The notes beneath the pieces were generated by a model. It was given only the letters and a program-made list of their open reading frames with translations. It did no database searches and was not told where the DNA came from. A stretch of 34,801 nt of DNA from a virus, in IMG/VR virus record IMGVR_UViG_3300008952_004029, positions 1 to 34,801 of that record; one strand, given 5' to 3'. The position numbers and the translations under genes are program-made. Positions 7,561-21,157 of the stretch are shown here, piece by piece (the first letter of the stretch is position 1; each line of letters starts with the position of its first letter).

Positions 7561-8003
7561 TACGAGAGTTCATACAAATGGTAATAGCCCAGACACCCTC
7601 TAAGCCAGGGGCAGGAATTATAGTCGTACAGAGATTCACTACAGGGTGGAAGGTTCTTGCCCTAAAAACGCCGGGAGGTATTCTGGACATTCCTAAGGGG
7701 GCAATCGATGATAATGAATTTCCTCTTGAAGCTGCCCTAAGAGAAACAGAAGAAGAAGCCGGTATTACAAAGCTGGATTTCACGTGGGGTTTGGGCCACG
7801 TGGTCAATGGCGATATGACATGCTACATAGCACAAACCACAGAAGAACCTACAATTTCTGCGAATCCTCATACTCATATTGTTGAACATGTTGAGGCTAG
7901 CTGGGTAGATTGGAATTATCTTGAAGAAAATACATATGACTTTCTTAAGCCATGTATTAGGTGGGCCCAGGAGATTGTAGAAAATGAAAACCAGTGTCCT
8001 TAG
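7536..8003 (+). CDS. Nudix hydrolase
   Basis: A 155-residue protein starting at GTG 7536, inside the end of the HD gene, with GAGG at 7522-7525 as ribosome binding site. The Nudix box G-x5-E-x7-REUxEExGU is complete at about 55-77 (GAIDDNE ... RETEEEAGI). IVVQRFTTGWKVLALKTP before it and VEASWVDWNYLEEN after it are the usual strands; the C-terminal Trp/Tyr part resembles diadenosine-polyphosphate and bis(5'-nucleosyl)-tetraphosphatase types. It cleaves nucleoside diphosphates linked to another moiety; possible substrates are Ap4A, NAD-capped or triphosphorylated RNA 5' ends, or (p)ppGpp. An N-terminal NRLIREFIQMVI segment (about 6-17), absent from standard Nudix domains, matches the local tag. 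The stop overlaps the CCA-adding enzyme start by 20 nt. Confidence 0.92.
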   Translation: MSRQKNRLIREFIQMVIAQTPSKPGAGIIVVQRFTTGWKVLALKTPGGILDIPKGAIDDNEFPLEAALRETEEEAGITKLDFTWGLGHVVNGDMTCYIAQTTEEPTISANPHTHIVEHVEASWVDWNYLEENTYDFLKPCIRWAQEIVENENQCP

Positions 8004-9279
8004 AAACTATATTCAGGTTATTCTAAAAGAAGGTAGCGGAGACCTTACCGATGAACAATCTAATGCAGCGCTAGATTTAATCTCTAATCTAATTTCATCC
8101 AGCTCACAATTTAGAGGAAAGGTATACCTGGCCGGTGGAGCGGTTCGAGATGAAATCATGGGAAAGACTAGCCATGATATTGATATTGTCGTTGCACTTA
8201 AAGATGGTGGAATAAAGTTAGCTGAGTGGTTATCACAACGTGCACGCACGAAACATCGGCCGACAATATTCGAGCGATTTGGTACTGCAATGTTATCCAT
8301 GGATGGGGTTGAGCACAATGGAGTTGATCTGTCCGGAGTAGAAATCGAAATGGTTCAAACCCGTGCAGAAAAATATGATCCGGAATCTAGAAAACCTTCT
8401 ACATCTTTCGGAACAATTGAACAAGATGTAATGAGAAGAGACCTAACAATCAACTCATTACTTAAAGATCTTACCACCGGTGAGGTACTCGACCTTACAG
8501 GTAAGGGCTTACAAGATATTAAAGATGGTACCGTACGTACACCGATGGATCCTAATGAGACGTTTGATGATGATCCCCTAAGGATCTTGCGCGCAGTTAG
8601 ATTTACTAGTCGTTATGATTTTCATATGACGGAAGAGTTAGCGGCGGCCATGGTTAATAATGCCGATCGGCTCAAGATTATATCTAAAGAAAGAATACGA
8701 GATGAGCTAGGAAAGATCTTAACAGGAGCTAATCCAGAAAAGGGAATGGAGTTGTTGGTTGATCATGATCTAATTCGCTATGTCGTACCAGAGCTAGTAG
8801 GTAAAGAAAATCAGTTAACTAATTTAAGGTTTACTGGATCTGATCTCATTACCAACATGGCTAAATTACTTTCATTAACAAATGATCAGGCAATGAGTAG
8901 CGCTAAGCAGTTACGATTTTCAAATGAAGAAGCTAAGCAAATTATGACATTAGCAAACTTTCGAAATCAGATGATTCAGGATCCTTCAAACAAGAATATC
9001 CTTAAATCATCCCTTCCCGTGTACGCTAGCGGTGGTGGAGACTATGTCTTAGATGTAATTGATGACCTACCTTCAAAACGTGATGCCGAGGCTCTAAGTG
9101 AATTCTTGGGAGTCGAGCCTACATTATTTTTTTCCGGAGGAGACTTGCTTAAGACCTTTGAACTTAAGCCGGGCCCACAAATTGGAGAAATTATTAAGCT
9201 CCAACAAGAGTTATGGTATGAAAATCCTGCCGTTACACAGGCAGAAGTACGTTCAAAGATTGAAAATTATTTAAGTTGA
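7984..9279 (+). CDS. cca: tRNA CCA-adding enzyme / poly(A) polymerase family
   Basis: A 431-residue class II nucleotidyltransferase. VYLAGGAVRDEIMG (about 47-60) carries the GG-x-VRD signature. SHDIDIVV (about 63-70) gives the metal-binding pair Asp65/Asp67. RRDLTINSL (about 151-159) and DDPLRILRAVRF (about 196-207) are the ribose/base-recognition and neck motifs. The C-terminal body is helical. The family adds or repairs CCA at tRNA 3' ends; poly(A) polymerase I is the main alternative. The neighbouring tRNA-Asn lacks encoded CCA, which favours CCA addition. The first 19 residues, MKTSVLRNYIQVILKEGSG, precede the normal fold and look like a T4 capsid-targeting peptide, including L-K-E before Gly. 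AGGAG (7969-7973) supports the start. Confidence 0.92.
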   Translation: MKTSVLRNYIQVILKEGSGDLTDEQSNAALDLISNLISSSSQFRGKVYLAGGAVRDEIMGKTSHDIDIVVALKDGGIKLAEWLSQRARTKHRPTIFERFGTAMLSMDGVEHNGVDLSGVEIEMVQTRAEKYDPESRKPSTSFGTIEQDVMRRDLTINSLLKDLTTGEVLDLTGKGLQDIKDGTVRTPMDPNETFDDDPLRILRAVRFTSRYDFHMTEELAAAMVNNADRLKIISKERIRDELGKILTGANPEKGMELLVDHDLIRYVVPELVGKENQLTNLRFTGSDLITNMAKLLSLTNDQAMSSAKQLRFSNEEAKQIMTLANFRNQMIQDPSNKNILKSSLPVYASGGGDYVLDVIDDLPSKRDAEALSEFLGVEPTLFFSGGDLLKTFELKPGPQIGEIIKLQQELWYENPAVTQAEVRSKIENYLS

Positions 9280-9329: not shown

Positions 9330-10508
9330 ATGTCTATTTTCAAAGAACATAAAACGTCTGCAGATCGTTCCGCATCCGACCGGCGTCGGCATAAGCAAAA
9401 AATCGAAAAAGCTATCCGTGAAGGCGTACACCATATTGTTGCTGATGAAAGCATAATAGGCCAGGATGGTAAAAAGAAGATTCGCATACCCGTGCGGGGG
9501 ATTAAAGAATATCGATTTGTTTATGGTGAGAACCCAAAGAATAAACGTGTAGGGAATGCTCAAGGAAAAAATATTGGCCGGGGACAGCAGATTGGAACTA
9601 ACAAGCCCCAGCCTGGCCAAGGACAAAAAGCAGGATCCGAACAAGGCGTTGAATATTATGACGTTGAAATAACGTTAGACGAGCTGGCTGCATATCTATT
9701 CGATTCTTTAGAGCTACCAGATCTAGAGCGTAAACACATTCAGAAAATTTTAGAAAAGAAAATGCAACGCCATGGTTACCGAAGTGATGGCATTCGGCCG
9801 AGGTTAGACAAGAAGCAGTCGATTAAAAAGAAGCTTAAAAGAAAAGCAGCGGCAAAGAGAGTCGGCACACACAATGAAGATGAAGATGAAAGATTTCCAT
9901 TTCATAAAAATGACCTTAGATATCGCCATATTAAGCCAGTTACCAAAGAGACCAGCAGCGCCGTAATCTTTTTTGTGATGGATATATCCGGATCAATGGG
10001 CCAACAAAAGAAATTTCTGGCGCGGAGCTTTTTCTTTTTGCTGTATCAGTTTATTAGGTACAGATATGAAAGTGTTGATTTAGTTTTTATTGCTCATGAC
10101 ACGCATGCGTATGAAGTGAATGAGCAGCAGTTTTTTACCCGTGGTCAGGGTGGAGGTACTATAGTCTCATCTGCACTTGAGATGGTACTCGATGTTGTAG
10201 AAAAGCGCTATAATCCGGAGTCATGGAACATATATGCATTTCATTGTTCTGATGGAGATAACTGGCCGAGTGATATGGAAAAATCTATATACCTCTCTGA
10301 ACGTATACGAGACTTAAGCCAAATGTATTGCTATAGCCAGATTGTTCCAGAGGAAGATACCGTACGATGGATTCGGGACGATGAACAAACGTTAGCGGGT
10401 GTATACGCACCTCTCGAGCGACCAAACTTCAAAATAGTAAAGATTCAAAAAAACAGTGATATATGGCCAGCATTTAAGACATTATTCGGAGGGAAATTAG
10501 GTGTCTGA
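9330..10508 (+). CDS. YhbH/YeaH family (DUF444) protein with VWA-like domain
   Basis: A 392-residue protein. The N-terminal part (RRRHKQKIEKAIREGVHHIV, then KIRIPVRGIKEYRF) matches the DUF444 start and looks closer to Bacillus YhbH than to E. coli YeaH. A Gly/Gln-rich linker follows. The C-terminal half is von Willebrand A-like: VMDISGSMGQ gives the D-x-S-x-S MIDAS, and RGQGGGTIVSSAL and HCSDGDNW complete the metal-site loops. Members partner with the PrkA/YeaG AAA+ kinase and SpoVR/YcgB; the complex's target is not settled. Here all three partners are adjacent. No Shine-Dalgarno precedes the ATG. The stop overlaps the SpoVR gene by 8 nt. Confidence 0.93.
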   Translation: MSIFKEHKTSADRSASDRRRHKQKIEKAIREGVHHIVADESIIGQDGKKKIRIPVRGIKEYRFVYGENPKNKRVGNAQGKNIGRGQQIGTNKPQPGQGQKAGSEQGVEYYDVEITLDELAAYLFDSLELPDLERKHIQKILEKKMQRHGYRSDGIRPRLDKKQSIKKKLKRKAAAKRVGTHNEDEDERFPFHKNDLRYRHIKPVTKETSSAVIFFVMDISGSMGQQKKFLARSFFFLLYQFIRYRYESVDLVFIAHDTHAYEVNEQQFFTRGQGGGTIVSSALEMVLDVVEKRYNPESWNIYAFHCSDGDNWPSDMEKSIYLSERIRDLSQMYCYSQIVPEEDTVRWIRDDEQTLAGVYAPLERPNFKIVKIQKNSDIWPAFKTLFGGKLGV

Positions 10509-11808
10509 TTGGGACTTCAAAATGTTAGAGGAATGGGATGAAAAAATCTGTGAGCTAGCTAAAACAGCTGGCTTAGACTGGCATCCTATTATCTATGAGA
10601 CATGCGACTATTATGAGATGATCGGAAATATGGCATACCACGGCCTGCCTAGTCATTATAGCCACTGGTCATTTGGAAAGTCTTTTGAGAGAACACACCA
10701 GCTTTATAATGCCGGAGTTGAAGGTTTGCCATATGAACTAATCATTAATGCAAATCCTTCAATTGCATATCTCATGAGAGAAAATCCTGCATATCTACAA
10801 CTGCTTATCATGTGTCACTGCGTTGGCCACTCTGATTTCTTTAAGAATAATAGAATGTTTGCGCATACTCGACCTGATCAGATAACGTTGAGGTTTCGGA
10901 ATGCCAGAAACAGAATCCAGAAATATATTGAAGATCCCAGCATCGGTATAGAGAAAGTGGAAAATATTTTAGATACCACTCACTCTATGAAATACCAAAT
11001 TAATCGATTTCATATTGCCCGGCCCTCACATGAAGAACTTAAAGAAGAATATACACAAAAAATCAAAAATGATGAAGATGGGCTGTATGCAGACTTTGAT
11101 ATTGAAAAAATTCCTCTAGAGCCAGATTTCGATATTATGAATTTTCTAATACATCATGCCCGACACCTTAAGGATTGGGAGCGCGATTTATTAGAGATCG
11201 TACGGGACGAATCATACTATTTTATGCCTCAAATTCAAACAAAGATTATGAATGAAGGATGGGCTAGTTTTTGGCACTATCGCTTAATGCACCAGCTTGA
11301 ACTTCCACAAAAGTTTCATATTCCGTTTCTAAAAAGTCACAATCAGGTAATTAGACCACACATCGGTGGCGTAAACCCCTATCATTTAGGGTTTTATATG
11401 TTTAAGCACATTGAAGAAAAATTTGGAATTGAGCGATGCTTTAAGGCTAGGGAAGTTTGTCATGATGCTTCATTCTTACGAGAATACTTAGATGAAGATA
11501 TCTGTTATGAACTTAACCTATTTTCTTACTCTAAAAAGAAGGCCGGATATTCAATTGACGAAATTTCTGACTCTGACGGGTGGAAAAAAGTCAAGAATGA
11601 CCTTATCAAGGGAGTGGGAGATGGTACAATTCCAAGGATATATGTAGAAGAAGTGTTACCAGGAAACGTTTTAATGCTAAAACATGAGCACGATGGCCGA
11701 GACCTTGAGCTTAATTATGCTGATGAAGTTATTAAGAATGTCCGGGCGCTTTGGCGTGATGAGGTAAAATTAACAACTATAGTAGAAGAAGAACCGTGGG
11801 AGATCTAA
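10501..11808 (+). CDS. SpoVR/YcgB family protein
   Basis: A 435-residue protein starting at GTG 10501 with GGAGGG at 10488-10493. Family hallmarks are visible: YEMIGNMAYHGLPSHYSHWS and FGKSFE near the N-terminus, MCHCVGHSDFFKNN (about 103-116), and MNEGWASFWHYRLM (about 249-262). GGVNPYHLGF and the C-terminal barrel-like part complete the fold. It is slightly shorter than bacterial SpoVR/YcgB (about 470-510). In bacteria this family is linked to sporulation cortex formation (Bacillus) and stationary or nitrogen-stress responses (enterics), but its biochemistry is unknown. The conserved His/Glu sets suggest a metal site. It is translationally coupled to the YhbH gene and lies 36 nt before the PrkA gene. 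Confidence 0.94.
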   Translation: MSDWDFKMLEEWDEKICELAKTAGLDWHPIIYETCDYYEMIGNMAYHGLPSHYSHWSFGKSFERTHQLYNAGVEGLPYELIINANPSIAYLMRENPAYLQLLIMCHCVGHSDFFKNNRMFAHTRPDQITLRFRNARNRIQKYIEDPSIGIEKVENILDTTHSMKYQINRFHIARPSHEELKEEYTQKIKNDEDGLYADFDIEKIPLEPDFDIMNFLIHHARHLKDWERDLLEIVRDESYYFMPQIQTKIMNEGWASFWHYRLMHQLELPQKFHIPFLKSHNQVIRPHIGGVNPYHLGFYMFKHIEEKFGIERCFKAREVCHDASFLREYLDEDICYELNLFSYSKKKAGYSIDEISDSDGWKKVKNDLIKGVGDGTIPRIYVEEVLPGNVLMLKHEHDGRDLELNYADEVIKNVRALWRDEVKLTTIVEEEPWEI

Positions 11809-11844
11809 TTATATTAGACACGGCTTACGATAGGACGGTAACAA

Positions 11845-13785
11845 ATGGCTAAACAGAAGGATACAAAAAACTTTCTTGATATTATCAAGGATCAACGGCT
11901 TAAGTCAAAGAAGGAAAAGTTTGAAGGATCTTTTCTGGAGTATCTTGAGTTGGTGCGATCTAATCCGGATATTGCAAAGTTATCTCATAAGAGACTATGC
12001 GATGCCCTAGAGGCTCATGGTATTTCCGAGATGTCGGACGACGACTCTAGAAAACATAAGCTCTTCGGTGGCGATAACATAAAGATATATGAGTATTTCA
12101 ATAATGAATTTTTCGGAATGGAAAAAGTAATATACAAGATAATGCGGTATCTTAAGTCGGCAGCCCTTAAGGGTGAAGAGAGCCGACAGGTGTTATTATT
12201 GATGGGCCCTGTGGGCGCAGGAAAGTCTGCGCTAACAGAACATATTAAAAGAGCCCTCGAGGGAATTTCGTATTATCATCTTAAGGATGACCCGCAACGT
12301 GGTGAACCTCTACAATTAATACCCAGAAGTCTCCGCGGGGAGTTCGAAGATATTTTAGGAATCCGGATTGAGGGTGACATTAGCCCCGTGGCGCGCCACC
12401 GATTGCTGGAAGAGTATTCAGGAAAATATGAAACCTTCCCTGTGGTTGAAACAACATTTTCTCAGCGCGCACGTAGGGGTGTAGCTGCGGTGCCGCCGAT
12501 GGACGCAAATAGCCAGGATACTAGTGTCCTTATTGGCTCAGAGGATATATCAAAGTTAGATCTATATCCAGAAGACGATCCGCGGGTTCTATCACTAAAT
12601 GGTGCTTTTAACGTTGGTAATCGTGGCTTAGTTGAATTTATTGAGTTATTCAAGAATGAAATTGAGTTTCTACATACAATTATTACTGCAACGCAGGAAA
12701 AGCGGGTACCATCCCCCGGTAGAAGTGACATGATATTCTTTGATGGTGTTATTTTAGCGCATTGTAATGAGGCTGAATGGAATCGATTTAGGGCCCAGCA
12801 TACTAATGAAGCAATTTTAGACCGAGTTGTGAAAATTAATGTTCCCTATGTACTCGAGCTTGATCAAGAAATCAAAATTTATGAAAAGCAATTGGCCCGG
12901 TCGGACTTCGACGCCCACATTGCCCCACATACTATCAGGGTCGCATCAATGTTTTCTGTGATGTCACGGCTTAAGCCTTCCCAAAAATGTGATATTCTAA
13001 CCAAGATGAAAATCTATAATGGCGAGGATGTTATAGAGAAAGGCAGGGTTAAGAAAATTGACATTAAAGATCTTCGTGAAGAATCTCGAGATGAGGGAAT
13101 GAATGGCATCTCAACACGATTTATTATGAAGGCAGTTGATAATGCATTGGCAGATGCCGAAAAGAATATGATTACGCCTGTTTCAATTATTAATTCCCTT
13201 ACCAAGCAAGTCAAAGAGCAATTGGTGAATGAAGAATTTAGAGTTTATTGCCTCGAATTGATCCAGAAGGTTGTTAGAGAAGAGTATCTTAGTATTTTGG
13301 AAACCGAGATTGCAAAAGCTTTCATTACTGCGTATGAGGAACAAGCCCAGTCATTATTTGACAATTATCTAGATAATGCAGAAGCTTTCACCACGCGCCA
13401 AAAGATCAAAGATAAGATTACTAAAGAAGTTCGTGAGCCTGATGAAGAATTCATGAGATCGATTGAAGAACAAATCGGTATCGTCGGATCAGCCCGGGAT
13501 GGATTTCGAAGCGATGTTACTGCATACATGTTTGCCAGCCTCCGGCGGGGAGAGAAGGTTAACTATCAAAGCTATGAACCTCTTAAAGAGGCAATTGAAG
13601 GTTATCTAATTGGATCTGTCAAAGACATGGCTCGAATTGTAACTAAGTCGAAGACTAGGGACGATGATCAGAAAAAGAAACATAACGAAATGGTTGAGGT
13701 TATGATGAATGAGTATGGTTATAATGCAGATTCCGCTGAAGAGATCTTAATCTTCGCTAGCAATAATCTCTGGCGTGACAGCTAA
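11845..13785 (+). CDS. PrkA/YeaG family AAA+ serine protein kinase
   Basis: A 646-residue protein, the usual length for YeaG/PrkA. GPVGAGKS (121-128) is Walker A. SEDISKLDLYPEDDPRVLSL and GLVEFIELFK, followed by HTIITATQE and DGVILAHCNEAEW, are PrkA AAA-domain signatures with Walker B and sensor regions. LDRVVKINVPY is the arginine-finger side. The C-terminal third is the kinase-like and helical region. In Bacillus PrkA was reported to act as a kinase and protease-like regulator; in E. coli YeaG acts with YeaH under stress. Encoded right after YhbH and SpoVR homologues, it completes the three-part system within one likely operon. The ribosome site is weak (GGACGG about 10 nt upstream). A phage version could rewire host stress metabolism. 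Confidence 0.95.
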   Translation: MAKQKDTKNFLDIIKDQRLKSKKEKFEGSFLEYLELVRSNPDIAKLSHKRLCDALEAHGISEMSDDDSRKHKLFGGDNIKIYEYFNNEFFGMEKVIYKIMRYLKSAALKGEESRQVLLLMGPVGAGKSALTEHIKRALEGISYYHLKDDPQRGEPLQLIPRSLRGEFEDILGIRIEGDISPVARHRLLEEYSGKYETFPVVETTFSQRARRGVAAVPPMDANSQDTSVLIGSEDISKLDLYPEDDPRVLSLNGAFNVGNRGLVEFIELFKNEIEFLHTIITATQEKRVPSPGRSDMIFFDGVILAHCNEAEWNRFRAQHTNEAILDRVVKINVPYVLELDQEIKIYEKQLARSDFDAHIAPHTIRVASMFSVMSRLKPSQKCDILTKMKIYNGEDVIEKGRVKKIDIKDLREESRDEGMNGISTRFIMKAVDNALADAEKNMITPVSIINSLTKQVKEQLVNEEFRVYCLELIQKVVREEYLSILETEIAKAFITAYEEQAQSLFDNYLDNAEAFTTRQKIKDKITKEVREPDEEFMRSIEEQIGIVGSARDGFRSDVTAYMFASLRRGEKVNYQSYEPLKEAIEGYLIGSVKDMARIVTKSKTRDDDQKKKHNEMVEVMMNEYGYNADSAEEILIFASNNLWRDS

Positions 13786-13839: not shown

Positions 13840-14181
13840 ATGAAAAATATCACGATCGGATATCCAGAATTTTTGCTAGTCGCCGGCTGTGCATTATGTG
13901 TTTTTAGCCCGGGCTCATTGGCATTAACAATCGTTTGCCTATCAATTGCTAGTGCTGTCATGCGCGCATCACTCAATATTAATTCTAAAAATAAAGAAGA
14001 TGAGCGAAAAGATAGAGAAGAAGAGCGACGTGTAAGATCAGAACAGCGTGTTGATAACGTTATTGATCAATTAGTAAAAGCAAATCAGTATCAAGCAGCT
14101 GCACAGTATACTTCTATTATGGGCGGACGGTTTAATCCAGGAGATGATGATGGTAGCGATAACGGCGGATACAACCACTAA
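13840..14181 (+). CDS. small membrane protein with charged C-terminal helix
   Basis: A 113-residue protein with CGGAGG 6 nt before the ATG. Residues about 10-43 are hydrophobic (FLLVAGCALCVF then LALTIVCLSIASAV), forming a membrane hairpin or one long span. KNKEDERKDREEERRVRSEQRVDNVIDQL (in two parts, about 50-78) is a highly charged helix or coiled coil. The tail is Gly/Asp-rich (GDDDGSDNGG). The shape resembles small phage holins or membrane adaptors, but nothing proves this. It follows the PrkA module and overlaps the chaperonin-like gene by 32 nt, so it may act with either. Family not recognised. Confidence 0.78.
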   Translation: MKNITIGYPEFLLVAGCALCVFSPGSLALTIVCLSIASAVMRASLNINSKNKEDERKDREEERRVRSEQRVDNVIDQLVKANQYQAAAQYTSIMGGRFNPGDDDGSDNGGYNH

Positions 14182-15541
14182 TTTTGTCTCTGTCCAGAAA
14201 CAAAAACATGTCTTAGATCAAGTTAACTCATTTGTAAGTGAGATAGAAAAAGATCTCTTAAAATCGCTACGTAAGAATGCATACTTAGCTGCACCCCATG
14301 ATCTTATTACGTTAGCTGCATCTGACTTTCGACATATATTGCAGTCTAAAAATGTTAAAGGCATTGAGCTGTGCATTAGAAATATATTGCTCGAATCAGT
14401 TATCAAGCTTGAAAGAAACTCCGGGATGTCCGGATTGATCGCCGGCCTAACTTGTATCCAGCTTATAAAAGATCAGATCTTTAAACATCATCTCAATGTA
14501 CCGATAGAACAACCGGACATCACAGATAGCTTACACATGTTTTCTAGCATGTCTAGGCATACCAACATTAATACCATAGGGGAAACCATGGGTATGTACT
14601 TAGGTGACCCATGTGTAACTTCTATGGTCATGCAAGCATACCAATTAGCAGGGCATAGTGGCCAGATCTTTGTTGACAAAGAATATGCTGCGGCAACATG
14701 CATTGAGCTATTAAATGGGTATACGTTTCCATACGGAATAAACCCAGAGTTTATAGTCAATACTAAGACACAGATCTGGAAGGAATCCGGTGTAAAGTGT
14801 CTAATAATTGACGGAACAATAGAGACAGTCTCAGAAATTCACCATGTGTTACAATATTTTTTCGAAGAAAAATGGCCCGGAATCATTATTGCTCGAGGAT
14901 TTGGAGAAGAAGTATTAGGCACGCTGATATCGAACTATAACAGGCAAACACTTAACGTCTTGCCCATAGCTGTGCCTTATGATCTAGAGGGTGTCAATGC
15001 ATTAGTGGACATAGCTGTTACATGTAACACGGATGTCATTTCAAGCATTAAAGGAGAACTAATCTCTTCTATAGACCCTGTCGACATTGCTACGGTCGAA
15101 AAAGTTACACTATCTAATAAGCTTATTATTTCAAATCCGGTGGCAGAACATAATGTACGATATCATTTATCACAGATTCTAGATCAAAAAGAATCAGCAA
15201 TCCAGAGTAAAAAAGAGCTACTTGATAAGCGGACAAAATCACTATCATCTGTATGTGTACATTTCAAAGTAGATAGTCATCAAAAAAACCGCGGTCTATA
15301 TTTCAGTAGAATTGATCATGGCATCAAGTTGTTTAGAGAAATGTCTGCTCATGGAATTGTACAGTTAGAGAATGCTGTAAGACAATTACAGGATAAAAGC
15401 ATACGGAGTATAATGCAATCTTTTCTTGACAGTGGTTACCAGCAGCTACCGGCTCAGAGCTTAATCTTAGGGTGTAAGGTCGGGGAAGAAATAGCTAGCT
15501 CAATATTGTCTTCAACGGTGTATTTAGTATTAGATCAATGA
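14150..15541 (+). CDS. highly divergent GroEL-like (HSP60) chaperonin
   Basis: The third of three tandem ATGs (14144, 14147, 14150) is chosen because AGGAG ends at 14143; the product is 463 residues. The middle aligns by eye with the GroEL intermediate and apical domains: GQIFVDKEYAAATCIELLNG then YTFPYGINPEFI; WPGIIIARGFGEEVLGTLIS; LNVLPIAVPYDLEGVNALVDIAV; TDVISS. Later, LLDKRTKSLSSVCVHFKV and SRIDHGIKLFREMSAHGIV match the returning intermediate domain. Asp389 lines up with catalytic Asp398 of GroEL. The equatorial ATP motifs (LGPKGR, DGTTT, GGG) are not recognisable, the DGTTT position reading about RNSGMSG, and the C-terminal equatorial part is short. I infer a phage chaperonin with altered or absent ATP use. 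No GroES homologue lies in the window. Confidence 0.8.
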   Translation: MVAITADTTTNFVSVQKQKHVLDQVNSFVSEIEKDLLKSLRKNAYLAAPHDLITLAASDFRHILQSKNVKGIELCIRNILLESVIKLERNSGMSGLIAGLTCIQLIKDQIFKHHLNVPIEQPDITDSLHMFSSMSRHTNINTIGETMGMYLGDPCVTSMVMQAYQLAGHSGQIFVDKEYAAATCIELLNGYTFPYGINPEFIVNTKTQIWKESGVKCLIIDGTIETVSEIHHVLQYFFEEKWPGIIIARGFGEEVLGTLISNYNRQTLNVLPIAVPYDLEGVNALVDIAVTCNTDVISSIKGELISSIDPVDIATVEKVTLSNKLIISNPVAEHNVRYHLSQILDQKESAIQSKKELLDKRTKSLSSVCVHFKVDSHQKNRGLYFSRIDHGIKLFREMSAHGIVQLENAVRQLQDKSIRSIMQSFLDSGYQQLPAQSLILGCKVGEEIASSILSSTVYLVLDQ

Positions 15542-17270: not shown

Positions 17271-17635
17271 GGGGGCGAAACGGTCTCGACGGGGTAATGA
17301 AGGATGAAGGTGCAAGTAGCCAACTGTAACACATGGCTTGACAGTGTTTCAAACTATAATTGCTAACGATAACGTTGCATACGATTACGCACTAGCTGCA
17401 TAATCGCGGGGTTTCCGATGACCTTGTTTTCCAATATCGGATAAGTGGTTGGTCCCACCGAAAATAACAAGACCAAAATGGTACCCTGCTATAGCAGGTG
17501 GACTTCCAAGGCCACATAGGAAACGGGAAATTTGTGGATAGGAATTCTGGACACCGAAAAAGTCCAGACAAACTTGTGAATGACCTGATTTTAGAATTGT
17601 TTCGGACGCGGGTTCGACTCCCGCCGCCTCCACCA
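17271..17635 (+). ncRNA. ssrA: transfer-messenger RNA (one-piece tmRNA)
   Basis: The 5' end GGGGGCGAAACGGTCTCGACGG is the tmRNA signature. It pairs as GGGGGCG with CGCCTCC (17625-17631), followed by discriminator A and encoded CCA (17633-17635). The T arm is GCGGG-TTCGACT-CCCGC. The tag frame runs from GCT 17362 to TAA 17401-17403 and encodes ANDNVAYDYALAA, ending in the ALAA degron recognised by ClpXP-type proteases. The RNA rescues stalled ribosomes with SmpB, which is presumably from the host since no smpB is seen here. It is a standard unpermuted form. The tubulin gene's ribosome site starts at the next base. Confidence 0.97.
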
Positions 17636-17646
17636 GGAGAATTATA

Positions 17647-18789
17647 ATGGGAAGTACACTTGGGAATATCCAAAAGTTTAGAAAAAGAGGAAACAAGATG
17701 AGTAACAAAAAAGAAGACGAACAACCTCAGGATGATACATATATCAATCCTCAAGATGATGATTGGGGGTTTGTATCTGGTCTAGACGAAGATACTGGAT
17801 TTGTCGATGAGCGCCTATTACCAGAAAATACAGCAGCCTCAGCGCTGAATGTCGGTTTCGTAGGCGTCGGTGGTGGCGGCGGAAAGCTGGCAAAGTCATT
17901 TTTAGACTTAGGGTTTAATAAGACATTGTTGGTCAATACTACAGCCAAGGATCAACCAGGTGGTTTGGATCCTAATCACTTTTTACAGATCCCGGGAGCC
18001 GATGGCGTCGGAAAAGATGTCAACTTGGGAAAAAAGATCCTTAGTGAAAACAGTGCGCTGGTTGAAGATGCGCTAAGATCAAGGTTCGGAAAGCTAGATT
18101 GGCTATTTGTTTTTGCCGGTGGTGGAGGCGGGACTGGGTCTGCATGTCATTCACTCCATGGAGCGTTTGATCGGTATCTTAGATCTCTCGAGGCGGAAGG
18201 CGCTGTCGTATACGTTGTGACAAAGCCTTCGGCACAGGAACTTTTGAATCCTTCGATTAAAGAAAATTATGAAAGTGCCATGGCGGATGTTAGTAGTCAC
18301 CCCCATATTGTATTAGACAATGAAAGACAACTACAGCTGCTCCGTGGGAAGGTCGGGATGCTAAACATGTACCCAGCCGCCAACGGCCAGTTCGCAAAAT
18401 TGGTGCACCAGGTACTTAAGTTAGCAGACCAAAGTTCAGATATATCTGCATTCGACTCTAATGATCTTGAGAGATGCCTGCGTACACCGGGCCGTATATT
18501 TATGGGTAGTACTATAGTGAAGGATACGAGTGGTCGTGACCTCGGATCGACAGTATTCCAAGGGTGTATAAGGGGATCGGCATGCCCTGCCCCCACAGGC
18601 AATCCTGAAACCGGGGTGCTATTATTATTGGTAACATCTAGCATGGCATCTGACCCGGACGTAAGCAATAAGCTTGAAGCAGCAACAACATATGTTGGTG
18701 GACGCACAAATACACTTTTCTCCGGAATTTATCTTAATGATAGAATTCCAGGGTTAATTGCGCTAACGATGTTCGGCGGAATGAACTAA
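17647..18789 (+). CDS. FtsZ/tubulin-superfamily GTPase
   Basis: A 380-residue protein. NVGFVGVGGGGGKLAKSFLD (about 68-87) is the T1 loop. LLVNTTAKD (about 94-102) is T2 and FAGGGGGTGSA (about 156-166) is the tubulin/FtsZ signature G-G-G-T-G-[ST]-[GA]. VVTKP follows as T5. NERQLQLL aligns with FtsZ NDKLLKVL. FDSNDLERCL supplies Asp270 and Asp273 where FtsZ has NVDFADV, so the T7 catalytic acids seem present. About 65 acidic residues precede the domain, and the FtsZ C-terminal peptide is absent. It should polymerise with GTP; phage tubulins (PhuZ, TubZ) move or centre DNA. GGAG at 17636-17639 supports ATG 17647; a second ATG at 17698 also has GAGGAA. Confidence 0.9.
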   Translation: MGSTLGNIQKFRKRGNKMSNKKEDEQPQDDTYINPQDDDWGFVSGLDEDTGFVDERLLPENTAASALNVGFVGVGGGGGKLAKSFLDLGFNKTLLVNTTAKDQPGGLDPNHFLQIPGADGVGKDVNLGKKILSENSALVEDALRSRFGKLDWLFVFAGGGGGTGSACHSLHGAFDRYLRSLEAEGAVVYVVTKPSAQELLNPSIKENYESAMADVSSHPHIVLDNERQLQLLRGKVGMLNMYPAANGQFAKLVHQVLKLADQSSDISAFDSNDLERCLRTPGRIFMGSTIVKDTSGRDLGSTVFQGCIRGSACPAPTGNPETGVLLLLVTSSMASDPDVSNKLEAATTYVGGRTNTLFSGIYLNDRIPGLIALTMFGGMN

Positions 18790-19055
18790 AGCTTAAGGTC
18801 TGATTTATTCAATAGCTTCTTGAAAATTAATTTTTCTATTTGGCATATTCTCATACGAGTTACGCCAAACATATCGCCAATATCTTGGAGCGTTTTTTCT
18901 CCATCCCTAGCTGCTATTTGAATACAGTTTTGATATTTTTCAGAAGAGTGCCAATAACGGCATTCTTCTTTTTTGCATGGTACTTTGTACTTTTCGTGTT
19001 CATTATGACATGTCGTGCCTATTAAGACCAAGTCATTATCTTTCTTTTTTGCCAC
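18786..19055 (-). CDS. sigma-70 region 4-like DNA-binding protein
   Basis: The C-terminal half, GEKTLQDIGDMFGVTRMRIC then QIEKLIFKKL, is a sigma region 4 helix-turn-helix (T-L-x-x-I-G-x-x-x-G-V-T-R-x-R-[IV]-x-Q-I-E). The N-terminal half carries four or five cysteines (GTTCHNEHEKYKVPCKKEEC, then YQNC), a possible zinc site. Sigma regions 1-3 are missing, so it may be a region-4-only late factor, an anti-host adaptor or a transcriptional regulator that contacts the -35. GTG 19055 is chosen for the GGGG 7 nt upstream (89 residues); ATG 19079 adds eight residues without a ribosome site. It is convergent with the tubulin gene (stops overlap by 3 nt) and divergent from PhoH. Confidence 0.82.
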   Translation of the reverse strand: MAKKKDNDLVLIGTTCHNEHEKYKVPCKKEECRYWHSSEKYQNCIQIAARDGEKTLQDIGDMFGVTRMRICQIEKLIFKKLLNKSDLKL

Positions 19056-19094
19056 AGTTAACCCCGTCGATAGGAACATGTTACATGTACGTTC

Positions 19095-20523: not shown

Positions 20524-20871
20524 GTGGCTCATACTAGATTTACAAAAAGAGATCGTAATAGATATAAGAAGATTTACCCATTCGTTAAGCGTACCCCTAG
20601 ATGGGAATATGCTAGCCCTGTTGACTTCCAGATGGAAGTAGGAGAGGTTGATTTCGAGGGTGAAACCTATCTATCATTTACGTTTGCAGAAGCCTTTCCT
20701 GCACCACCAGAGAACCCACCTATCATTACTGCAACATCATTGGATCCTGAACATGCAGTTAACGTTACAATATTCAATGTTTCCCATAAGGGAGCCGATG
20801 TTAGTGTAACGAACCCATATTATGGAAAGGTGGTATGGCATGCAATATGGATCGAGTGTTCGGACTGTTAG
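20524..20871 (+). CDS. lectin-like small virion-associated protein
   Basis: A 115-residue protein starting at GTG 20524 with GGGAGG 6 nt upstream. After a basic N-terminus (FTKRDRNRYKKIYPFVKRTP) the core is beta-rich: QMEVGEVDFEGETYLSFTFA, EAFPAPPENPPIITATSLD, NVTIFNVSHKGADVSVTNPY, GKVVWHAIWIE. The pattern of a strand with F/A then P-P-x-[IV]-[IV]-T-A followed by paired strands is like the H-type lectin fold found in phage fibre-associated proteins. The gene directly downstream has the same plan, suggesting duplication. Probably a fibre tip, adaptor or decoration protein. Identification is by pattern only. Confidence 0.72.
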   Translation: MAHTRFTKRDRNRYKKIYPFVKRTPRWEYASPVDFQMEVGEVDFEGETYLSFTFAEAFPAPPENPPIITATSLDPEHAVNVTIFNVSHKGADVSVTNPYYGKVVWHAIWIECSDC

Positions 20872-20878
20872 GGATATC

Positions 20879-21157
20879 ATGGGACTAGTAGATACAAAGT
20901 TGACTGTACCTGAGTGGGCTATAGAAGTCGATACTGTTAATATGTCTGGGAAATATCGAACCCAGCATAAGTGGAAGTCATACTTTTCTTCACCCCCTCA
21001 TGTGGTAGCGACATGTATGAGCCCAACCGGTGTGCCGTTAGGCAATGCCAGCGTACACATAATATCAGTATCAGTAAAAGAGATCGATTTTTCGATCAAT
21101 GCGTATGTTCCAGGAATGTATGTTCACTTGCACGCTATCGGAAAGTGGCGAGACTAG
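20879..21157 (+). CDS. second lectin-like small protein (paralogue of the preceding gene)
   Basis: ATG 20879 is preferred over an upstream frame-open ATG at 20822, because that one sits inside the previous gene and adds 19 residues unlike the domain. AGGGA ends 4 nt before 20879, and the gap to the previous stop is 7 nt. The product is 92 residues. VPEWAIEVDTVNMSGKYRTQ, KWKSYFSSPPHVVATCMSP, SVHIISVSVKEIDFSINAYV and MYVHLHAIGKW repeat the strand order of the preceding protein, including the S-P-P-x-V-V-A-T element. It probably forms part of the same receptor-binding or fibre substructure. The next gene, the giant fibre, starts 12 nt later. Confidence 0.68.
   Translation: MGLVDTKLTVPEWAIEVDTVNMSGKYRTQHKWKSYFSSPPHVVATCMSPTGVPLGNASVHIISVSVKEIDFSINAYVPGMYVHLHAIGKWRD

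Follow-up and report, generated by a model that had tools for sequence, protein, structure and literature searches.

A previously unrecognised and diverged tubulin/FtsZ-superfamily GTPase with an N-terminal extension in large ocean phages of the T4 plan

Tubulins of phages have been described in two settings: nucleus-forming phages, which have PhuZ, and plasmid-like partition, which uses TubZ (PMC7950403). An open reading frame (ORF) with FtsZ-like nucleotide loops in a virus fragment raises the question of whether it belongs to either setting, and of what such a protein may do for its phage. The window, that is, the whole stretch of DNA analysed, is a 34.8 kb fragment (34,801 nucleotides; IMG/VR record IMGVR_UViG_3300008952_004029). 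The features around and within the ORF are as follows.

17271..17635, + strand: tmRNA gene, tag ANDNVAYDYALAA (Rfam RF00023, E 3.6e-42), 11 nt upstream of the ORF; context, with no demonstrated functional part.
17635..17639, + strand: Shine-Dalgarno AGGAG of the long-form start (duplex energy -7.4 kcal/mol), overlapping the final base of the tmRNA gene by its first A.
17647..18789 (stop codon included), + strand: tubulin/FtsZ-superfamily GTPase, long form of 380 aa (ORF list, profile matches, predicted fold).
17647..17697, + strand: basic segment of the long form only, residues 1-17; it begins M-G-S-T, in agreement with the M[AGPT]S[STG] tip of the family.
17687..17691, + strand: internal Shine-Dalgarno GAGGA of the putative short form (sequence, family statistics).
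17698..17838, + strand: putative short-form start ATG 17698 (MSNK) and acidic, predicted disordered region, residues 18-64 (composition, AlphaFold).
17863..17883, + strand: T1 nucleotide loop GVGGGGG, residues 73-79 (sequence, alignment of relatives).
18115..18144, + strand: T4 or G-box loop AGGGGGTGSA, residues 157-166 (alignment of 61 members).
18451..18468, + strand: T7 catalytic loop FDSNDL, residues 269-274 (FDxxDL in 61/61; aligned to the FtsZ T7 loop).

The ORF encodes a diverged GTPase of the tubulin/FtsZ superfamily. Its match to Pfam Tubulin (PF00091; 28.5 bits, E 2e-6) lies under the gathering cut-off of 33, as does that of phiKZ PhuZ (31.8 bits), and a relative in genome G004 exceeds it (35 bits); superfamily membership thus rests on fold and motifs. 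The structure prediction called for in the preliminary description gives a confident tubulin/FtsZ fold when AlphaFold is supplied with 60 members (pLDDT 87.5, pTM 0.82); an earlier model from 7 sequences had a pLDDT of 52. Foldseek aligns this fold with FtsZ, TubZ and CetZ at E ~1e-20, and the GTPase fold is accompanied by the GGGTG[ST] signature and the T7 acidic pair. TubZ (4ei7, 2xkb, 2xka) ranks beside FtsZ in this comparison and provides the highest query-normalised TM-scores (0.67-0.70), as would suit a filament that partitions DNA in the manner of TubZ and distributes phage genomes during long or pseudolysogenic infection. The sequence, however, is nearer to FtsZ in the PDB (E 5e-8 by single sequence, 1.3e-9 by profile) than to TubZ-type 4ei7 (E 0.0021), and an unsystematic look at the neighbouring genes noticed none that is TubR-like; we consider a partition filament unlikely.

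Conservation of the active site provides insight into how the protein may work. The three motifs noticed at the outset, GVGGGGG, AGGGGGTGSA and FDSNDL, are present at the residues given above and kept across the family; they are largely invariant in 60 aligned relatives, and so are not due to chance. GGGTGS occurs in 61/61 members, followed by the A or S that replaces the final Gly of the FtsZ G-box in each of them, and the T7 loop is FDxxDL throughout. The T3, T4 and T6 nucleotide loops rank among the most conserved stretches of the family alignment; the T7 stretch taken as a whole is only moderately conserved (0.85, with 27% of core stretches of the same length equally conserved). All 61 chains stop right after the last beta strand, 219-224 residues on from the T4 loop. 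With nothing beyond that strand, linker and peptide are both missing at the C-terminus, and the early remark that the FtsZ C-terminal peptide is lacking holds for the whole family. From the conservation of the active site we argue that the protein would polymerise: subunits are predicted to line up head to tail in dynamic filaments, where each GTP site would be completed by the T7 aspartates of the neighbouring subunit.

The gene is phage-borne, as had been supposed. Single-protein tblastn recovered no relatives among 50,697 phage records, and FtsZ matches in the phage collection were set aside as host-like sequence outside the family. Viral contigs provided 8 close relatives by search and at least 190 contigs confirmed by alignment, 80 of the 190 being kept for further work. 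Among the matches listed for the cellular genome set there was one, in a Flavobacteriaceae MAG; its contig is a phage with terminase and portal, and Flavobacteriaceae as host was rejected. In a tree of 19 members, 7 FtsZ, 2 FtsZ-like and 6 PhuZ sequences (TubZ and CetZ were left out), the family forms one clade (support 92/86), with PhuZ apart (100/99) and the FtsZ side at 94/99. This tree, with seven FtsZ references, rejects recent capture of a host FtsZ and supports the new branch that the preliminary description had envisaged. By eye the protein had looked more like FtsZ than like PhuZ, and this is borne out by the family profile (38.8 bits for E. coli FtsZ vs 11.6 for the best PhuZ) and by Foldseek. 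Diverged FtsZ-like proteins are also encoded on Pseudoalteromonas and Marinomonas plasmids (L094 and L095). Since bacterial FtsZs are the closest solved relatives, the phage protein might interfere with host division: by co-assembling with the FtsZ of the host, or poisoning it, it would let the cell grow longer without dividing. Identity to FtsZ of only ~20% and the long branch that separates the two make mixed protofilaments unlikely, and the phage FtsZ inhibitors known so far are small proteins, which counts against such interference; we regard it as decidedly improbable.

The relatives also identify the type of phage that carries the gene. Gp23 capsid (PF07068) is found in 9/10 large contigs bearing the gene, at E about 1e-65, but not in phiKZ; locus L015 has a Portal_T4 match, and every large contig searched holds one Tubulin-domain gene. 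The carriers are T4-type (Gp23) jumbo phages, an attribution that extends to the window itself through its relatives. The closest cultured capsids are at most 46% identical, the top one being that of Flavobacterium phage immuto, and the capsid of an uncultured 484 kb phage is 48% identical. The tubulin-like gene is not universal within the wider phage group: it occurs in only 2/14 viral contigs picked by capsid similarity, in one of the two with internal stops, and is missing from a 257 kb contig. A family match at L215 (G023 C1:73615-74733) has six internal stop codons, through either a sequencing error or decay of the copy. Some genomes have two Gp23 capsid genes in tandem (G003 C1:176509-180120; G005 C1:139350-142938).

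Centring a phage nucleus is what known jumbo-phage tubulins do, and the PhuZ profile phrog_4733 weakly matches 4/7 members (best E 0.0015); the window protein has no match to it at E<=1. Against such a PhuZ-type spindle, the chimallin profile (phrog_4795) matches 0/10 large contigs of the relatives, which are possibly incomplete, with phiKZ as positive control at 1.8e-232. The window record being a fragment, this result covers the large contigs of its relatives. The phage-nucleus setting, for which a chimallin search had been suggested, was thus not found in these 10 contigs. An Rpb1_5-type RNA polymerase is likewise unmatched, in a comparison with a weak control (phiKZ itself reaches only 7e-4), the carriers have a T4-type capsid, and PhuZ is distant by sequence, fold and tree. 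A spindle of this kind is very improbable here.

The surroundings of the gene differ among lineages. In one set of lineages it sits in a head/neck block, where a head-tail-adaptor-like gene lies downstream, mostly directly, in 19 loci (L001, L008, L015, L016, L019-L023, L039, L044, L055, L063, L066, L069, L070, L073, L079 and L081); the order is the same in L074, a truncated copy. Of the 19 loci, 14 have Gp23 on the upstream side (L008, L015, L016, L019, L020, L021, L022, L023, L039, L044, L055, L069, L070 and L079), separated from the tubulin-like gene by 0-2 ORFs in 11 of these, by 3 in L022 and L023 and by 5 in L021. No Gp23 is seen in L001, L063, L066, L073 and L081 because the available sequence begins close by; their downstream genes are present. 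In L015, the locus in which neighbour identities were checked, the order is portal gp20, protease gp21, Gp23, a small ORF, the tubulin-like gene, adaptor, head closure, gp15-like and sheath. The other lineages, with the window among them, have tmRNA/PhoH or different neighbours: the window-type order is PrkA, HSP60-like, small genes, tmRNA, tubulin-like gene, PhoH, and a tmRNA lies at most 200 nt upstream of the tubulin-like gene in 20/63 loci.

Several other genes of the window deserve mention. YeaH-type (DUF444), SpoVR and PrkA genes stand in series at 9330-13785 (+) and are kept in the window-type arrangement. The tubulin gene is preceded in 18 loci by the gene of a very diverged HSP60/GroEL-like protein (14144-15541, + in the window; phrog_5725, E 4e-17); co-occurrence of tubulin and HSP60 has been reported in jumbo phages (PMC7824862). 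Downstream of the tubulin gene and antisense to it, 18786-19079 (-) encodes a 97-aa sigma-70 region 4 protein, found in 15 loci, and the overlapping paralogous small genes at 20524-20871 and 20822-21157 (+) recur as a pair in relatives (cluster 15). A stretch of the LRxxIRxxL type, possibly an address tag, recurs at the N-terminus of many proteins; G003 has 11 of them, and the stretch was noted at L113, L115, L123, L124 and L127 of that genome and at 7984-9279 of the window. The T4 late promoter TATAAATA was discarded as a signal, with 3 occurrences in the window vs 3.03 expected.

Location in the head/neck block, in the lineages that have it, would also suit a protein that forms no filament, either a GTP-binding factor of head/neck assembly or a minor component of the virion. 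A short peptide may point the same way: head-closure proteins (L015:12460-13143 and homologues) end in S[SA]FY[ADGS][DES], and a resembling FYAD is found in the extension of six members (L044, L055, L063, L073, L079 and L081). FYAD is counted 13 times vs 1.9 expected, but in few independent families, and its use as a general virion tag is unsupported in two large contigs; we treat the candidate link between the tubulin-like extension and the neighbouring head-closure C-terminus as a lead only. Against such a role, all 61/61 members retain both halves of the inter-subunit active site (T7 and the nucleotide loops), and the head/neck location is not general; it appears improbable to us.

The extension in front of the core sets the family apart. 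It had been described as about 65 unusual acidic residues; the acidic front region stands, in the form of an acidic, predicted disordered extension of ~65 residues. Residues 18-64 contain 14 D/E and 3 K/R, the first 17 residues are basic as described (5 K/R, 0 D/E), and residues 1-50 have a mean pLDDT of about 50 and are predicted disordered. An upstream extension that starts M[AGPT]S[STG] or similar is found in 40 members; about 20 have the short form alone. Judged from its sequence, the extension itself is translated: a pooled pN/pS of 0.53 shows that in relatives it has evolved in the way of coding DNA. The two starts proposed earlier are strongly supported: 17647 and 17698 each have a Shine-Dalgarno sequence, and an internal in-frame start with Shine-Dalgarno is kept in 40/40 extended members. 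If the internal start is defined as the last in-frame ATG at least 30 residues ahead of the core, 39 members qualify, and 37/39 of these ATGs have an anti-SD duplex energy of <= -5 kcal/mol vs 27% of in-frame core ATGs. The difference in strength (Mann-Whitney p 1.7e-10) and the excess of internal SDs over the prediction of synonymous recoding (p 1.2e-9) were both calculated with related loci treated as independent, so these p-values are optimistic. An internal GTG start follows AAGGAG in L042 and AAGGAGGT in L070, and an internal ATG follows TAAGGAG in L013. Taken by itself, the window has an internal SD of a strength that its K/R/G codons would give by chance; the evidence for two starts is comparative. 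On this evidence two lengths of protein appear to be made from one gene in most members. A membrane-anchoring amphipathic helix at the tip was rejected as a general feature (5/40 members at p<0.05).

We propose, with about even confidence, that the protein is a GTPase that forms filaments in T4-type jumbo phages with no chimallin found, docked by the tip of its N-terminal tail, made as two isoforms and acting in assembly or positioning. Attachment would run through the N-terminal linker, which is disordered, mostly acidic and differs in length among members, the C-terminal end being bare. Internal initiation would give a short form without the conserved tip M[AGPT]S[STG] beside a long form that has it, and the long-form tip may dock the filament to a partner. 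Given the head/neck position of the gene in some lineages, its most likely job would be to place or move capsids or the phage DNA while virions are assembled; the protein probably acts in virion or DNA positioning. A more elaborate version is tentative and rather doubtful: T4-type ocean jumbo phages may possess a mirror-image FtsZ cytoskeleton, attached N-terminally, with attached and unattached isoforms from two starts, and this cytoskeleton, in phages that form no nucleus, may place or deliver capsids together with the head/neck machinery, with which it shares the FYAD-type peptide.

The family is previously unrecognised and widespread in large ocean phages of the T4 plan. In a 2022 survey of marine jumbo phages, the phiKZ-like cluster was the only one reported to have tubulin (PMC9123017); the present family is usually under the Pfam cut-off and would escape such survey annotation. 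A third, separate phage tubulin lineage in T4-type phages with no detected nucleus would mean that a virus-encoded cytoskeleton needs no nucleus, and it suggests that the carrier phages possess a cytoskeleton of their own, so far unsought.

Among known systems, the family has in common with FtsZ the fold (Foldseek E 1.9e-20, TM 0.75 by target length), the T1-T7 loops and the best sequence scores, but it forms its own clade at the low identity given above, ends its G-box in A/S where FtsZ has G, and scores 27.9 bits against the TIGR00065 equivalog cut-off of 295.2. PhuZ (Chimalliviridae) is likewise a phage-borne tubulin-superfamily GTPase of large phages, yet it is the more distant in sequence and in fold (Foldseek E about 1e-10), its clade excludes the family, and its phages are of a different type. 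TubZ is alike in fold (TM as above) and weakly similar in sequence. The best viral structural match is A0A6J5RW92, an 'FtsZ Cell division GTPase' of an uncultured Caudovirales phage (BFVD; E 2.6e-22, TM 0.73 by query length); at 16% identity and 452 aa it is compared by structure and not as a demonstrated family member. FtsZ attaches to its partners by a C-terminal disordered linker and peptide, both lacking in 61/61 members. A precedent for an N-terminal tether is OdinFtsZ1, an Asgard FtsZ with an N-terminal amphipathic membrane helix (PMC12583498). Both would be FtsZ-fold proteins attached through the N-terminus, by an amphipathic helix in OdinFtsZ1 and, in the phage family, where amphipathicity is not general, putatively by a long acidic linker with two translation starts.
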